From: Streptomyces sp. NRRL B-1347
GTDB taxonomy: Bacteria; Actinomycetota; Actinomycetes; Streptomycetales; Streptomycetaceae
Reading direction: 5' to 3'
Length of the DNA stretch: 64,000 bases
NCBI RefSeq assembly: GCF_000720325.1
Contig: NZ_JOJM01000003.1
Coordinates: 434,001 to 498,000 of the forward strand
Shown: piece by piece, positions 7,183-47,978 of the stretch
Position numbering within the stretch: position 1 is the stretch's first letter
How the letters are laid out: every line of letters begins with the position of its first letter
Position numbers and translations under genes: made by a program
Notes under the pieces: model-generated
The model's input: only the letters and a program-made list of their open reading frames with translations
What the model was told of the DNA's origin: nothing
The model's database searches: none

Positions 7183-8031
7183 TCAGCGGGCGGCGCGGGC
7201 CAGGAGCTTGTCCTTCACGGCCCTCCACCGGTCGGCGGCCTCGGCGTCGCCGAGCGCGGTGTGCAGGTCGGCGATCAGGTCGTAGCTGGTGCCCTCCGGC
7301 AGAGCGACGGAGTAGAACAGCCGAAGCAGCAACTGTTCGGCTGCGTCCACGTAGCCGAGGTCCGCCAGGCAGCGCGCGGCGGCCAGCTTGTCCGCCAGCT
7401 CGGCCCGGGAAGCTCGCGGCAGCGGCTCGGCCGCTGCCGGAAGCACCTGTGCCCGCTTGGCGAGGTGGCCGTAGGCGTCGTCGGCGTAGACGTCCGCGAT
7501 CAGGTGGATCCGGTCCGGGCCGAGCAGATTGCAGACCCCGTGGGGAAACGTCGGGGTCAGCCGCCAGATCCGTCCACCGGCCAGGTGGACCTTGGCTCCA
7601 CCGGTGACCAGGAACGCGGAAGAGTTGGTGTGCAGCGGGATGTGCAGGCGGTGCCGTTCAACCTGCTCGAGCTCGTCGTAGTCCCGGTGTTCCCAGAGGA
7701 ACGCGTTCGCCTCCAGCCGTGCGAGCCGTACCCACATGTACGAAAGGCCGAGATCGGACAGCAGTCCAGCTGTCGTGGGCATCTGGGCCAGCAGGTCAGT
7801 GGGGCGAGCGGTGCAGTCGCCGATTCGCACATCGGCGGCTTCGCCGGTTTCGTTCATCAGCGACGTGGTCCACCAGCCGCCGGACTGGTATTCGTCATAG
7901 GCGGCCTTCCAAGGGGCCTGGGCGGTCAGGGCCTCGTGGCGCAGCCGCTCGACCAACGAGCCGTCGAGCTGGTCCAACTGAGCGACCTGACCGGACAGGG
8001 CATGCGGAGTCCGTACTTCGTCGTCATTCAT
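7183..8031 (-). CDS. Aspartyl/asparaginyl beta-hydroxylase-like 2-oxoglutarate dioxygenase
   Basis: 282 residues, first gene of the minus-strand operon; the start at 8031 lies just after GGGACGTC. The Asp/Arg_hydrox fold is recognisable: likely iron ligands His115 (LWEHRDY) and His164 (FPHGVCN), the RHRLHIPL strand at 126-133 and Arg174 in DRIHLIAD for 2-oxoglutarate. Human AspH uses the same two-histidine arrangement. The C-terminal 80 residues are an extra helical region absent from minimal members. It could hydroxylate a free amino acid, a peptide, a carrier-bound residue or a protein; the sequence does not say which. Confidence 0.8.
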   Translation of the reverse strand: MNDDEVRTPHALSGQVAQLDQLDGSLVERLRHEALTAQAPWKAAYDEYQSGGWWTTSLMNETGEAADVRIGDCTARPTDLLAQMPTTAGLLSDLGLSYMWVRLARLEANAFLWEHRDYDELEQVERHRLHIPLHTNSSAFLVTGGAKVHLAGGRIWRLTPTFPHGVCNLLGPDRIHLIADVYADDAYGHLAKRAQVLPAAAEPLPRASRAELADKLAAARCLADLGYVDAAEQLLLRLFYSVALPEGTSYDLIADLHTALGDAEAADRWRAVKDKLLARAAR

Positions 8032-41921: not shown

Positions 41922-42962
41922 TCAGAAGCGCTCGCGGAACTGAGCCGGGGAGAGGGAGAACTCGTTCTGGAAGGCGCGGCGCATGGCCGTGGGCGTCGGA
42001 TAGCCGCTGGCGCGGGCGACCTGCTCGATGCTGTCGTGGGTTTCCTCCAGGAGACGGCAGGCGGTCTCCAGCCGGGCCCGGCTGACATAGCGGCCGGGCG
42101 GCACCCCGGTCTCGGCGGTGAAGGCGCGGGTGAAGTGGCGTGGCGAGAGGCGGGCGCGCCGGGCGAGGCTCTCGATCCTGAGGTCGGACTCGGGGTGGTC
42201 CGCGATCCATTGCTGCACGTCACGCAGGCTGTCGCGCTGGGCCGTCTGGGCCATCAGCTGGGTGCTGAACTGCCGCTGGTTGCCTGAGCGGCGCAGGAAG
42301 ACGACCAGGTCACGGGCGATGGCCAGGGAAGCGGACCGTCCGAGGTCCTCCTCGACCAGCGCCAGGGCGAGATCGATACCACTGGTCACCCCGGCCGAGG
42401 TGGAGATCCTGCCCTCCCTGATGAAGATGGGGTCGGCGTCGACGGTGATGTCGGGATGGGCCCGGGCCAGATCCGCGGCCTTGCGCCAGTGCGTGGTGAC
42501 GCGCCGCCCCGTCAGCAGCCCCGCCTCGGCGAGCAGGAACGCACCCGTGCAGATGGACACGATCCGCTGGTAGCGCCCCGCGTGCCGGGCCAGCCACGGT
42601 ACGACCACCTGCGACCCGGCGGCACGGACGCGCCGCGCGTCGATCTCTCCTCCCGGGACCACCAGAGTGTGCCAGGCGTCCGCCTCGTCGAGGGCGCAGT
42701 CCGGCACGAGAGTGATACCGCCGCCGGCGCTCACCGGCGCACCGTCCGCGCTGGCCGTCCGGACACGGTAGGCCGCGTCGCCGGGCGAGCGGTGGTCCAT
42801 CACCGCGTTGGCCCGGACGAACACCGACACCGGGCCGGTCACGTCCAGTGCCTCCACCCCGTCGAACAGCACGACCAGCACACCGAGGGTTCTCACCCCG
42901 TTCAGCCTGACCCATCCAGGAGCTGTCCGCAACGCCACTTTTCTTGGCTTTTGACCCATCAT
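41922..42962 (-). CDS. GlxA-type AraC-family regulator
   Basis: 346 residues from the ATG at 42962, six bases after GGAG. The N-terminal DJ-1/PfpI-like domain (VLVVLFDGVEALDVTGPVSV) includes VSICTGAFLLAEAGLLTGRR with the family cysteine; the C-terminus carries two AraC helix-turn-helix motifs (ESLARRARLSPRHFTRAF, IEQVARASGYPTPTAMRRAF). Its start lies 160 bases from the divergently transcribed glycocin precursor, so it is a candidate regulator of that locus. A second, similar protein is at 60507-61472. Confidence 0.85.
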   Translation of the reverse strand: MMGQKPRKVALRTAPGWVRLNGVRTLGVLVVLFDGVEALDVTGPVSVFVRANAVMDHRSPGDAAYRVRTASADGAPVSAGGGITLVPDCALDEADAWHTLVVPGGEIDARRVRAAGSQVVVPWLARHAGRYQRIVSICTGAFLLAEAGLLTGRRVTTHWRKAADLARAHPDITVDADPIFIREGRISTSAGVTSGIDLALALVEEDLGRSASLAIARDLVVFLRRSGNQRQFSTQLMAQTAQRDSLRDVQQWIADHPESDLRIESLARRARLSPRHFTRAFTAETGVPPGRYVSRARLETACRLLEETHDSIEQVARASGYPTPTAMRRAFQNEFSLSPAQFRERF

Positions 42963-43122
42963 GCGATGCTCCGACAAGCGCTGGCGAACACGCCCGTACT
43001 CAACGGACGTTGACATCCGACGGCAGTGGCCGCGGCCCGGCCGGGCGCGCAGGATCGCTCCCGTATCCGCCGTACGGGACGGGAAAAGCCGGCCCGGCGG
43101 TCCTGGCAGAAGGAGAAACCGC

Positions 43123-43317
43123 ATGAGTCTGTCCACCCTGCGTTCCCTCCAGTTCCCCGCACTGGACGCGGACGCGTCGGAGTCCACGACCGGAGAAGGT
43201 CTCAGCCCGGCCCAGTGCGCGTACATCTGGACGCTGGCCTCGACGAGCGCCGTCATCTCCTGTGGCGGGACGCCGAGCGACTACATGGCCATCTACAACC
43301 GCGAATGCCGCTACTGA
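43123..43317 (+). CDS. Sublancin-like glycocin precursor peptide
   Basis: 64 residues; AGAAGGAG (43108-43115) precedes the ATG by seven bases. Leader about residues 1-25 (ending STTGE), core about 26-64 beginning GLSPAQCAYIW. Compared with sublancin, the start (GLxxAQCAxxW), the central CGG and the C-terminal CR coincide. Core Cys7, Cys22 and Cys37 are kept, matching sublancin Cys7, Cys22 (S-glucosylated) and Cys36. Positions 14 and 29, which form the inner disulfide in sublancin, are Ala and Tyr here. Predicted product: one Cys7-Cys37 disulfide and a glycosylated Cys22. The last base of codon 64 and the stop come from the IS630 element inserted here. The -1 residue Glu is unusual for C39 cleavage sites. 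Confidence 0.9.
   Translation: MSLSTLRSLQFPALDADASESTTGEGLSPAQCAYIWTLASTSAVISCGGTPSDYMAIYNRECRY
43312..43313. repeat. TA target duplication, left flank of the IS630 element
   Basis: The dinucleotide TA directly before the left inverted repeat matches the TA after the right end (44465-44466), as expected for IS630 insertion. This TA was part of the glycocin gene's original TAG stop codon. Confidence 0.85.
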
Positions 43318-43369
43318 TCTTTGCGGTTCGGGGTGATGGTGATGTTGCTCGGGGGTGTATCCCGGTGGC

Positions 43370-43864
43370 ATGAGGTATCCCGATGGGGGTGGCCTGACCG
43401 CGAAGCAGCGGGCCCGGCGGGAGCAAGTACGCTTCGAGGCAGCCGAGTTGTTCGCGCAAGGGGTGAGGCCGCCGCAGGTCGCACGGCGGTTGCGGGTCTC
43501 CCGCAAGTCCGCCTATGCCTGGCATGCCAACTGGCGGGACCGCGGCATGGATGCCTTGCGGTCGAGGGGGCCGTCCGGGCGTCCGTCGCGGATGAAGCCG
43601 CAGTGGCGGGCCTGGCTGGCCGCGGAGCTGGGGAAGGGGCTGGCCGCGCACGGGTGGGTGGAAGACCAGCGGTGGACGCTGGCCCGGGTGGCCACCGTGA
43701 TCGCCCGCCGGTTCCACGTGCGTTTCAGCGCGGCGCAGACCTGCCGCATCCTGCACCAGATGGGCTGGACGGTGCAGGTCCCGGCGCGTCGGGCCGCCGA
43801 GCGCGACGAGGACGCGGTGACCACCTGGGTCAAGGAGACCTGGCCCTTGGTGGAAAGACGGTGA
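43370..43864 (+). CDS. IS630 transposase, N-terminal part (OrfA)
   Basis: About 164 residues from an ATG at 43370. Contains a helix-turn-helix (LFAQGVRPPQVARRLRVSRKSAYAWHANW) and a second winged helix-like region (VATVIARRFHVRFSAAQTCRIL) that bind the element ends. The frame stops at 43864 with TGA; OrfB starts with a GTG overlapping that stop (GTGA), or is made by a -1 frameshift around 43845-43860 to give the full transposase. Confidence 0.85.
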   Translation: MRYPDGGGLTAKQRARREQVRFEAAELFAQGVRPPQVARRLRVSRKSAYAWHANWRDRGMDALRSRGPSGRPSRMKPQWRAWLAAELGKGLAAHGWVEDQRWTLARVATVIARRFHVRFSAAQTCRILHQMGWTVQVPARRAAERDEDAVTTWVKETWPLVERR

Positions 43865-44439
43865 GGGACCAGGACGCCTGGCTGTGCTTCGCGGATGAGT
43901 CGGGGCAGCTCCTGCGACCGCCCAGGGCGCGCACCTGGTCCCGACGCGGACACACCCCCCTGGTCACGGTCCGCGCGGCGGGCTCGGGCCGTATCTCGCT
44001 CGCCGGACTCGTGTGCCGCAGACCCGGTCGCCGCACCCGGCTCATCTTCCGGATGCTGGTGCACCACGGCCGCAAGGGCGAGAAGAAAGGCTTTCGGGAG
44101 AAGGACTTTGCCCGTCTGCTGGACGCGGTCCACCAGCAGCTCGGCGGCAGCATCGTGCTGTTGTGGGACAACTACACCCACCACATCGATGCCGCGATGC
44201 GCGAGCTGATCGAGGCCCGGCGGTGGCTGACGGTCTTCCGCTTCCCGTCCTACGCACCCGACTTGAACCCGGCCGAGGGGGTGTGGTCCCACCTGAAGCG
44301 CAGCCTGGGGAACCTGGCGCCGTGCAGCATCGACGAACTGGCCGCGCTGGCCCGCACCCGCCTCAAACGGATGCAGTACCAGCCCGGCCTGCTCGACGGA
44401 TTCATCGCCGAGACCGGACTGATCTCGGCGCCACCATGA
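43861..44439 (+). CDS. IS630 transposase, catalytic part (OrfB)
   Basis: About 192 residues if started at the GTG at 43861. The DDE_3 catalytic residues are visible: Asp in LCFADESGQ, Asp in VLLWDNYTHH, and Glu in YAPDLNPAEGVWSHLK. It catalyses cut-and-paste transposition into TA. The catalytic triad is intact and the ends are perfect, so the element is probably active or recently active. Confidence 0.9.
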   Translation: MRDQDAWLCFADESGQLLRPPRARTWSRRGHTPLVTVRAAGSGRISLAGLVCRRPGRRTRLIFRMLVHHGRKGEKKGFREKDFARLLDAVHQQLGGSIVLLWDNYTHHIDAAMRELIEARRWLTVFRFPSYAPDLNPAEGVWSHLKRSLGNLAPCSIDELAALARTRLKRMQYQPGLLDGFIAETGLISAPP

Positions 44440-44464
44440 CGTCACCCCGAACCGCAAAGATCAG

Positions 44465-44466
44465 TA
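44465..44466. repeat. TA target duplication, right flank of the IS630 element
   Basis: Right-hand copy of the duplicated TA; followed by GCCGC. Joined to the left-hand codon CGC it recreates CGC TAG. Confidence 0.85.
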
Positions 44467-44551: not shown

Positions 44552-46678
44552 ATGCCCCGCACCCACCACACCCAGCAGATCGGGGAGAGCGACTGCGGCC
44601 CCGCGTGCGTGCGGACCGTGCTGCGCGGGCACGGGATCGCCGTCGACGCCGCCGTGCTCCGTGAATCCGTCGGCCTCGGTGCCGGCGGTTCCAGCATGCT
44701 GCGGCTGCGCGAGGTGCTGACGTCGTACGGGATCGACTGCGAGGTGCTGCTCCTGGACGTGGGGCAGCTGCGTACAGCTGTGGAGCTGGCCGGACCCGCC
44801 GTCATCCGGGTGCGTGTGGAAGCGTCCGCGCACTTCATCGTGGTGCACTCGGCGCACCAGTCGGGCGGTTTCCTCGTCAGCGACCCGCTGTTCTCCCGCC
44901 CCCACCTGGTCAGTGAGCAGGACATGGCCCTCATGTTCGAAGGTCAGGCCCTCGTCACCGAACGCCCGGCAAGCCGTCGGCTGCCGCTGCGCGAACGGCT
45001 GTCCGGGACGCGCTCCGCGAACCTGGCCTGGGAGATCGTCAGCGCGCGGCGCGGGGCGCTGACCGGGATCCTGGCCCTCACCTGCGCCCTGTCCCTGGTG
45101 GCCCTGCTCACCAGCCTCTACCTCCAGATGGCGGTGGACCGCGTGGCCAGGCGAGGGTCCATGGGCGCGATCACGGGGCTGACAGGCGCGGTCCTGCTCG
45201 CGGTGCTGGCCGCCGCGGGAGTGCAGTACCTGCGCGGGCGGATGACGGTCGCCCTCGGGCAGTCATTGCAGCGTGAACTGTCCGAACGCTATGTGGGCAA
45301 GCTGCTGCGGCTGCCCCTGTCCTTCCATCACGGACGCCGTGCGGGCGATCTGGTGAACAGGCTGAACGACATAGCGGAAATCCAGACGCTGGTGGCCACC
45401 GTCACCGTCCGGGCCGCCGTCGGCGTCTTCGTCGTGCTGACGGTCGGCCTCTACCTGCTGTGGACGCAGCCCCTCCTGCTGCTGGTCCTGACGCTCTCGG
45501 CTGCCATCAACCTTCTCGGCTCGTGGCTTCTGTACGGGCCGATCAGACGGGCCTCCGAGGAGGCGCTGCAGCGGGACGCGACGCTCAAGGCGGAGACGTT
45601 CAACACCCTGCACAAGTACGAGAGCGTGGCGGCGTTCGCCAGGCGCGAGTTCGCCGCCGCCCGCATCTCCCGGAGCCTGGGGCGCAGGATCGCAGCCGAG
45701 ACGCGCCTGGGACGTCTGGAGAATCTGAACACGGCCCTCAAGGCGGCGAACATGGGCGCCTTCACCATCCTGATCGCCTGGGTGCTGCTGAGCCAGGCGC
45801 TCGCGGGCCGCATCACCATCGGCCAGGTCTTCTCCCTGTTCGCCGTCTCCGGCTACTTCCTGAGCTCCGCCGACGCGATCGCGGCCGTCCAGGTCGCCCT
45901 GCAACGTCTCTCGGTCGCGGGCTCCCGCTACCGCGACATCATGGCCCAACGCGAAAACACCCGAACCCTTCGCGCGGGGCCGTCCGACTCCGCCCAGCAC
46001 GGGGAGCCGGGCCTCGCGGACCTCGACATGCGCGACCTGGACATCTTCTATCCCGCCGGGCGTCGGTCGGCGGTCTCCGGCTTCAGCGCCGCCCTTCCGC
46101 AGGGCTCGACCGCCCTCCTGCAGGGCGCCAACGGCTCCGGGAAGAGCACCGTGCTCAGGACGGCGGCCGGGCTCCACACCGAGTACGCGGGCACGATCAC
46201 GGTCGGCGGCGCGGACCTGCGGAATCTCGACGAGGACACCCTGCGCCGCCACGTGCTCTACGTACCCGAAGACCCCCTCCTCGTGGCCGGGGACGTGCAC
46301 GAGAACCTGACGCTGGGAGCCACCCACGAGGCCGCCGACATCGCCCGCGCCTGCCACATCGCATGCTTCCAGAGCGTGGTGGACACGCTCCCGACGGGAC
46401 TGGCCGAGCCCGTGCGGGAAGACGGTGCGGGCCTGTCCCGGGGGCAGGTGCAGCGCCTCGGGCTCGCCCGCGCCCTACTGCACAACCCTCGCATCTACCT
46501 CTTCGACGAGTCGTTCAGCGGCATCGACCGCGACACCATGGCCACGATCTGGCGCCGGCTGATGCGCCTCGACGCCACCAAACTCCTCGTCTCCCACGGT
46601 GCGCTGCCGCACATCTCCTTCGACCACGTCATACGGATCGGACCGGCCGCAGCGGACACATCCGAAAGGACCTCCTGA
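44552..46678 (+). CDS. C39-peptidase ABC transporter (SunT-type PCAT)
   Basis: 708 residues. The N-terminal 145 residues are a C39 protease: catalytic Cys15 in GESDCGPACV, His94 in AHFIVVHS and Asp111 in VSDPLF. Six membrane helices (about 165-420) follow, then an ATPase with Walker A LLQGANGSGKST, signature LSRGQVQRLGLA and Walker B RIYLFDESFSGID (consensus LDEP becomes FDES). Such proteins cut the leader from ribosomal peptides and export the core in one step. It lies 85 bases after the IS630 right end and one base before the glycosyltransferase gene, so it originally followed the glycocin gene directly. Confidence 0.92.
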   Translation: MPRTHHTQQIGESDCGPACVRTVLRGHGIAVDAAVLRESVGLGAGGSSMLRLREVLTSYGIDCEVLLLDVGQLRTAVELAGPAVIRVRVEASAHFIVVHSAHQSGGFLVSDPLFSRPHLVSEQDMALMFEGQALVTERPASRRLPLRERLSGTRSANLAWEIVSARRGALTGILALTCALSLVALLTSLYLQMAVDRVARRGSMGAITGLTGAVLLAVLAAAGVQYLRGRMTVALGQSLQRELSERYVGKLLRLPLSFHHGRRAGDLVNRLNDIAEIQTLVATVTVRAAVGVFVVLTVGLYLLWTQPLLLLVLTLSAAINLLGSWLLYGPIRRASEEALQRDATLKAETFNTLHKYESVAAFARREFAAARISRSLGRRIAAETRLGRLENLNTALKAANMGAFTILIAWVLLSQALAGRITIGQVFSLFAVSGYFLSSADAIAAVQVALQRLSVAGSRYRDIMAQRENTRTLRAGPSDSAQHGEPGLADLDMRDLDIFYPAGRRSAVSGFSAALPQGSTALLQGANGSGKSTVLRTAAGLHTEYAGTITVGGADLRNLDEDTLRRHVLYVPEDPLLVAGDVHENLTLGATHEAADIARACHIACFQSVVDTLPTGLAEPVREDGAGLSRGQVQRLGLARALLHNPRIYLFDESFSGIDRDTMATIWRRLMRLDATKLLVSHGALPHISFDHVIRIGPAAADTSERTS

Positions 46679-46679
46679 C

Positions 46680-47978
46680 ATGCGCTTCGCGGAACTGATG
46701 GAGCAGGCCGGACGGTCCGGACCGGACGGCGGCGGCCCGCTCGCCGCCGACCTGCGCCTGATCACCGCAGTCAGCCGCGCCTTGCACGAAGCGCCCGTCG
46801 CCCCGCCCGGGGACTGGCCCTCGCTCACGGCGCGGTACGCAAGGGAGGGCCGGCCGCCGCCGGTCACCGCGGTGGTCCTGACCCGGGACGAGGAGGCGTC
46901 CATCGGGTCCTGCCTGCACGCCCTTGAGGACGAGGTGGACCGCGTCCTGCTGATCGACTCGGGTTCCACCGACCGCACTTTGGACATCGCGGCGGACGCG
47001 ACGGACGCGCTGACGGTGCTCGCCGCCCCGTGGGCCGACGACTTCGCCCACCACCGCAACCTCGCCTTCGCGCACGTGTCCGCCGGATGGCTGATCCACG
47101 TGGACGCCGACGAATCCCTCAACGCCGCCACCAGCGGCCGCATCCGCCGGGCCCTGGCCGTACTGGACTACCTCCTGCCAGACACCGATCTCGCCGTCTG
47201 CCCCCGCGTCACCGACACCGACGGCCGCAGCTACCCCGACCTGCCCCGCGCCGTCCGTGCAGGTACCGCGCTCCGCTTCCGCGGCCGGGTGCACGAACAC
47301 CCCTACGACATACGGGGGAACGCGGCCCCGGCCGTCCACGTCGACGTGCGCTTCGAGCACACCGGCTACGAACCCGCCGTCATCGAGCGGAAGGACAAGC
47401 TCGCCGCCCGCGAGCGGCTGGTGGAGCTATGTCGCAGCCAGGAGCCGGACAACCCCAAGTGGGCGTTCTACCAGGTCCGGGCCGCGCTGCGGGCTCCCAC
47501 CTCACCGGCCCGGTCGCGGGAGCTGTTCACCCGCCTTCAGAGCGCCCTGTCCCGGTGCCCGACCGATGCCCCGGACTACGCACGCGAGCGGGTGCCCGAC
47601 TCGTGGGCCCTGCTGTGTGAACTCGCCCTGCGCTACGGCTCGGAGCAGGACGTCCATACGTACGCCGCGCGGCTGGACGATGCGCACCGGGCGCTGGAGG
47701 CCACGTACTACCGCACCCTCGTCGAGTCCAGTCACGCGGTGACCGCGCTCTCCCGAATGGTGGATGACATCGGCGCCGTCACCGAGCACGGGCACGGGCA
47801 TGAGCCCTGGCCTGCCACCGGACGGCTGCACGAGTTGCGGAGCATGCTGGCCCTGGCGTGCGGCCGCTACGACGACGCCCGGCGGGCTCTCGCGGACGCA
47901 CGGGCCCACGGGACAGGCGATGGCGTCGCCGCCCAGCTCTCGGCGCTGGCCCGCCTGGCAGCGGACCAGCGCCCATGA
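46680..47978 (+). CDS. SunS-type glycocin S-glycosyltransferase
   Basis: 432 residues (SunS is about 420). A GT-A family 2 domain starts near residue 60: VTAVVLTRDEEASIGSCL, VLLIDSGSTDRTLDIA, DDFAHHRNLAFAHVSAGWLI and the metal-site phrase HVDADES. The C-terminal 200 residues are helical, TPR-like (NPKWAFYQVRAALRAPT..., LALACGRYDDARRAL), as in SunS, where this part binds the acceptor peptide. It should transfer a hexose from a UDP-sugar to the Cys22 equivalent in the precursor, in the cytoplasm before export. The start overlaps nothing but follows the transporter stop by one base. Confidence 0.88.
   Translation: MRFAELMEQAGRSGPDGGGPLAADLRLITAVSRALHEAPVAPPGDWPSLTARYAREGRPPPVTAVVLTRDEEASIGSCLHALEDEVDRVLLIDSGSTDRTLDIAADATDALTVLAAPWADDFAHHRNLAFAHVSAGWLIHVDADESLNAATSGRIRRALAVLDYLLPDTDLAVCPRVTDTDGRSYPDLPRAVRAGTALRFRGRVHEHPYDIRGNAAPAVHVDVRFEHTGYEPAVIERKDKLAARERLVELCRSQEPDNPKWAFYQVRAALRAPTSPARSRELFTRLQSALSRCPTDAPDYARERVPDSWALLCELALRYGSEQDVHTYAARLDDAHRALEATYYRTLVESSHAVTALSRMVDDIGAVTEHGHGHEPWPATGRLHELRSMLALACGRYDDARRALADARAHGTGDGVAAQLSALARLAADQRP

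Follow-up and report, generated by a model that had tools for sequence, protein, structure and literature searches.

The window analysed here, a 64,000-nucleotide stretch of the Streptomyces sp. NRRL B-1347 genome, carries on its forward strand a gene for a sublancin-like precursor of 64 amino acids (43123..43317), recognized by Pfam PF19151, by its relatives and by dN/dS, and preceded by a likely ribosome binding site, AAGGAG, at 43110..43115 (+). On the same strand follow a SunT-type C39 peptidase-ABC exporter of 708 amino acids (44552..46678; PF03412, PF00664 and PF00005) and a 432-residue SunS/ThuS-kind peptide glycosyltransferase (46680..47978; TIGR04195 and the structures 7msk, 7msn and 7msp). 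An IS630-type element (43314..44464, +), bounded by terminal inverted repeats of 23 bp, sits between the precursor and its exporter and transferase. Divergent from the precursor, at 41922-42956 on the reverse strand, lies a gene for a DJ-1/AraC-type, FtrA-like regulator; a relative of this regulator is absent from all 12 loci compared.

A sublancin-like precursor with three cysteines

The original prediction, made from the sequence of the window, named this open reading frame as sublancin-like, and the assignment has held up. Pfam model PF19151 (Sublancin) scores 29.1 bits on the precursor with a cut-off of 26.9, and a profile (A1) built from 13 family members ranks sublancin (2mij) first in the PDB at E 0.0023 and brings the three cysteines into register. 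Among 14 control genomes PF19151 exceeded its cut-off in one, Bacillus subtilis. Across 336 genomes of the phylum it gave five matches at E<=0.01, the window's and four below the cut-off that we rejected as chance on the basis of their translations. A comparison of the precursor with NCBIfam gave zero matches up to E 0.001.

Gly-Ser-Gly is described as the cleavage site of SunA, ThuA and PalA (PMC6405829). By analogy, we infer cleavage before G26, giving a predicted leader of 25 amino acids (43123..43197, +) with a G-E end ahead of that glycine, and a predicted core of 39 residues (43198..43314, +; G26-Y64, GLSPAQCAYIWTLASTSAVISCGGTPSDYMAIYNRECRY). The register to 2mij and the sequence itself place the three cysteine codons of the core at 43216-43218 (core position 7), 43261-43263 (22) and 43306-43308 (37), all on the forward strand; position 14 is Ala and position 29 Tyr. 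Cys7, Cys22-Gly-Gly and the last Cys-Arg match sublancin as foreseen, and the inner cysteines are indeed absent, the counterpart of sublancin Cys29 being either Tyr29 or Met30. The gapless alignment to position 32 that had been put forward is one choice only, because a 39-residue core set against the 37-residue sublancin requires one gap ahead of the last Cys; HMMER places it after sublancin residue 28.

The precursor is under coding constraint in comparison with two relatives (dN 0.26 and dS 1.24 against L031; dN 0.23 and dS 0.80 against L087); the pair L036 and L084 was left out because an indel throws it out of register. The predicted structure of the precursor has a mean pLDDT of 66.5, with helices at core positions 4-15, 17-22 (short) and 26-36. 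A Foldseek search of the PDB with this model gave four matches, the best at E 1.0, and sublancin was absent from them. Since the model is weak and without a PDB match, a hairpin and a Cys7-Cys37 contact are unproved; the model neither proves nor excludes the hairpin.

Exporter and transferase of the SunT and SunS kinds

The two neighbors expected of a sublancin cluster are both present. The exporter carries PF03412, PF00664 and PF00005, in line with the SunT-type transporter named in the original prediction. For the transferase, TIGR04195 (the SunS equivalog) scores 132.7 bits, below its curated cut-off of 350, and a profile (A2) built from 12 relatives finds ThuS (7msk) and SunS (7msn and 7msp) as its best PDB matches (E 4e-63 to 2e-56). 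The AlphaFold2 model of the transferase has a mean pLDDT of 90.3; with it, Foldseek again ranks ThuS and SunS best, at E values between 7e-26 and 5e-24; another fold follows only at 1e-7. By sequence and by predicted fold the transferase is thus of the SunS/ThuS kind, though it stands outside the NCBI equivalog rule. Next in line for the transferase profile was GmaR (PDB 22ao, E 2e-29), a match that hints at a wider kinship among peptide and protein glycosyltransferases.

An IS630-type element within the final precursor codon

The element that parts the precursor from its partners has the IS630 features tested, namely a DDE transposase, terminal inverted repeats (43314-43336 and 44442-44464, with TA at both flanks) and a TA target duplication, whose left copy (43312..43313, +) occupies codon positions 1 and 2 of Tyr39 and whose right copy lies at 44465-44466. 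Its transposase is split over two overlapping frames, the first with the HTH part (43355..43864, +) and the second with the DDE_3 part (43321..44439, +), and because of this split each frame by itself scores below what NCBIfam requires (82.9 and 76.0 bits, with a cut-off of 100). The element went into the precursor gene precisely at its final codon, and the gene keeps an open frame while gaining one residue and a new stop. Because the base following the right TA is G, the last codon would read TAG without the element; in the five genomic relatives L002-L006 a TAG stop comes right after Cys-Arg, and the nearest relative, P0002 (76%), has a Cys-Arg terminus. Other tails exist among relatives, for example Cys-Lys-Gly-Lys in P0003. 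From these comparisons, Tyr39 and the TGA stop would have been supplied by the element. Joint expression of the three genes in this strain is uncertain, since the element separates the precursor from the other two. In the assembly, a draft of 362 contigs that may hide copies, one complete copy was found along with three partial matches of 66-67%, and the ends of the element were found in one of 199 genus genomes, the window's own. The insertion was missed by the original prediction, as were the exchange of the middle Cys for Ser and the PTS neighborhood of most relatives, both described below.

Distribution of the family

When the precursor was searched against 392 genus genomes (E<=0.1), 82 had a match, and the 30 loci of the stronger hits were read. 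Thirteen of these hold true precursors, the window and 12 further loci; the remainder (e.g. L009, L013, L014, L016 and L018-L030) were rejected as stretches of other frames. The order precursor, exporter, transferase is kept in all 12 genus relatives. In one of them, L032, the first ~46 residues of the exporter (~7623-7991, reverse strand) are in a different frame from the rest, reflecting either a frameshift or a sequence error. The transferase profile, which is blind to the precursor, found 13 of the 392 genomes, identical to the 13 precursor genomes. A transferase-based search for related loci in the genome contigs returned no relative.

Beyond the genus set, a transferase search of 249 family genomes gave ten matches, seven of them full-length; the other three were discarded as weak, incomplete matches (E 4e-24 to 5e-22). 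Three of the seven were already known and four represent new loci (L084-L087). Two of these, L084 and L087, have all three genes; L085 has a truncated exporter and, by eye, transposase-like ORFs, a precursor not being found, and L086 has the transferase alone, at the PTS site described below. In a class sample of 394 genomes, 16 had a transferase match, full-length in G000 and G192 only, with at most 122 bits for the others; none of these 394 genomes had a full-length transferase outside the genus. Database searches added 31 precursors as well as 53 transferases among 7997 candidates scored, and all database relatives with a named organism belong to Streptomyces or Kitasatospora.

The middle cysteine alternates with serine

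Forty distinct precursors (the 31 from the database, the window's and genome-derived ones, with P0025 trimmed to the conserved start) were aligned. The outer Cys pair is invariant (40/40). Thirty-three precursors have a middle Cys, 31 of them in one column and two shifted by one, and the other seven have Ser there (P0011/L037, P0014, P0020, P0027, P0029, P0030 and P0031, with two Cys each); in the one alignment made, this Ser aligns with the shifted Cys. None of the 40 has the inner pair or any additional Cys, so the set seen in characterized glycocins, sufficient for two nested disulfides plus a sugar-bearing Cys, is absent from these peptides, whose core in the window has three. Position 29 is aromatic throughout (38 Tyr, two Trp), and position 14 holds Ala, Ser or Ile.

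These counts divide the original argument for paired loss under selection. Selection rather than decay is supported by dN/dS; loss in this organism is not, because no distinct relative among the 40 has the pair. The inner pair was either lost in the Streptomyces/Kitasatospora family or gained in Bacillota, a direction that these data do not polarize. The original prediction also treated Cys22-Gly-Gly as conserved among homologs. The motif proves to vary, with Cys-Gly-Gly in 20 precursors, Cys-Ser-Tyr/His in ten, Cys-Ala-Gly in one, HGC-VP in two and Ser in seven, which weakens the claim of a fixed motif. We read this spread as a variable acceptor loop whose acceptor would remain Cys or Ser. 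The Cys/Ser pattern as a whole fits an assignment of the outer two cysteines to a disulfide and of the middle residue to an S- or O-glycosyl acceptor. An exchange of Cys and Ser at the glycosylated loop position is also described between orniglycocin and thermoglycocin (PMC12457901).

Most relatives lie beside PTS genes

Seventeen loci were compared for their neighborhood (the window, L031-L042 and L084-L087). Twelve of them, including L086 with its transferase only, are sited at paired PTS EIIC genes, in the interval from the gene for RNase PH to that for a metallo-beta-lactamase-fold protein. In the commonest arrangement (i) the locus is downstream and co-directional (L033-L035, L038-L042 and L086); in (ii) it occupies the same gap in the opposite orientation (L036 and L084), and in (iii) it lies between the two EIIC genes (L037). 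The EIIC identity was confirmed with Pfam, and for six EIIC proteins from four loci the GlcNAc-specific model was best, at 428 to 479 bits with a cut-off of 553. The window clade accounts for the five loci away from PTS genes, and the window genome's own EIIC pair sits on another contig. In the transferase tree these five loci form one group (98/98), and the labels need three changes on it. In-place inheritance with local inversion could explain much of the PTS arrangements, so independent insertions are unproved. At eight loci of arrangement (i) there is no gene-sized gap near the three genes for an immunity or oxidoreductase gene.

DasR-like sites were scored against a DasR consensus of 16 positions. 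By this consensus, L036 and L084 each have a 13/16 site, located 73 bp ahead of the precursor, and 14/16 is reached in L037, within its shared upstream region; the best upstream of the arrangement (i) precursors is 11/16. The five loci away from PTS genes have no site of at least 13/16 by the same consensus, and a DasR-like operator upstream of the window precursor was rejected (best 11/16).

Discussion

On the evidence of its genes, the family described here would work like a glycocin, yet it is non-canonical by the nested-disulfide criterion. We propose that the three-gene locus probably directs the synthesis of a sublancin-like peptide with one sugar on Cys22 and a single Cys7-Cys37 disulfide. 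The transferase would attach a hexose or HexNAc to Cys22 of the inter-helix loop, and in the seven Ser-type relatives the sugar would go onto the aligned Ser. The exporter would then cleave within the G-x-G leader end and secrete the core, whose Cys7 and Cys37 would join outside the cytoplasm. Packing may stand in for the inner disulfide clamp, since the residue at position 29 is aromatic in all 40 precursors. Finally, the product would be an antibacterial peptide acting via a sugar PTS, as reported for sublancin and glycocin F. In the window strain the IS630 element would add Tyr39 and might uncouple the exporter and transferase from the precursor promoter. Pallidocin is reported to lose its activity with its disulfides (PMC6405829), so activity need not carry over to a scaffold with one disulfide.

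The closest known systems differ from this one mainly in their cysteines and accessory genes. Sublancin 168 of Bacillus subtilis (SunA, SunT, SunS) has Cys7, Cys22 and the final Cys-Arg in the same register and shares the C39-ABC exporter and the SunS-fold transferase, whereas its inner Cys pair is missing here; it is also described with BdbA, BdbB and SunI (PMC6405829), while oxidoreductase and immunity genes were not found at the eight arrangement (i) loci. Thurandacin is close through ThuS (7msk), the best match of the window transferase in sequence and fold, but it is given five core Cys and two disulfides (PMC6405829), as against three Cys here. Thermoglycocin and orniglycocin, of the glycocin F type, share the Cys/Ser exchange and a leader end without double Gly, but are described with three disulfides and two GlcNAc (PMC12457901), compared with one predicted disulfide here. 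More generally, an account of 2019 gives characterized glycocins two disulfides and five Cys in the core (PMC6405829), and one of 2025 gives them two disulfides that are nested (PMC12139839); glycocins with a third disulfide were described later (PMC12457901).

Several other readings have to be weighed. The cluster may be real in the family and dead in this strain, the IS630 element blocking co-transcription and the tailed peptide remaining unmatured. The position of the element between precursor and exporter/transferase favors this, as does the decay of related clusters, with an exporter truncated and a precursor not found in L085 and a transferase left alone in L086; nevertheless, we hold it to be unlikely, if a serious possibility, given that all three reading frames are intact, that the co-directional transposase leaves room for read-through or a new promoter, and that the added residue falls after the last Cys-Arg. 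That the sugar is instead on a Ser or Thr of the loop, with the middle Cys free or paired with another molecule, seems improbable. Seven of the 40 relatives do have Ser in place of Cys there, and glycocin transferases with dual S/O activity are known (PMC12457901), but the loop Cys is kept in 33 despite varying flanks, and ThuS reportedly favors Cys over Ser (PMC12457901). A different connection of the three cysteines, such as Cys22 in a disulfide or a thioether made by an enzyme encoded elsewhere, we consider highly improbable: three Cys permit alternative pairings, and the precursor model has no PDB match to argue with, but the middle Cys swaps for Ser while the outer two are invariant, and at eight tightly bounded loci the exporter and transferase are all that lies beside the precursor.

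The PTS genes bear on a further alternative, in which the peptide is no bacteriocin but bears its sugar as a tag and serves GlcNAc uptake as a signal or a metabolic peptide. Twelve of the 17 loci lie at EIIC genes, eight leave no room for an immunity gene, and two (L036 and L084) have a DasR-like site of 13/16 upstream of the precursor. Set against this are the homology of the precursor to sublancin, the location of the window clade away from PTS genes and upstream DasR-like scores of 11/16 at best for arrangement (i) and the window, and we give such a role little credence. An antibacterial, sublancin-like product is the reading that we prefer, and for it the PTS neighborhood suggests a functional link. 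PTS transporters are described as influencing the activity of both sublancin and glycocin F (PMC6405829). It is tempting to speculate, tentatively and with more doubt than belief, that a minimal three-gene, one-disulfide class of glycocins evolved beside a GlcNAc PTS permease and works via it, the EIIC being docking receptor or self-protection partner. Either role would explain the missing immunity gene in the commonest form and the same permease pair in three arrangements.

The mechanism by which glycocins reach their target has been called far from understood (PMC6405829), and the recurrent position at a GlcNAc-type PTS offers a direct genetic test of how the target is found. A family predicted to have a single disulfide, with an acceptor site that can be Cys or Ser, would likewise test what a glycocin scaffold truly needs, and a tractable genus offers a small peptide S-glycosyltransferase system. 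By their titles, Sharma et al. in 2021 reportedly dealt with an S/O-HexNAc-transferase of Actinobacteria, and Singh and Rao in the same year are said to have treated glycocin clusters beyond Firmicutes. Precursor P0006 carries the name Streptomyces gardneri and may be linked to the strain of Sharma et al., whose enzyme might act on a peptide of this precursor family. Among the titles and abstract openings listed, with the two 2021 papers covered by title only, we found no published description of a one-disulfide glycocin scaffold. One precursor of the family is annotated as a sublancin family glycopeptide and one as a hydrolase, and the other named ones are called hypothetical.
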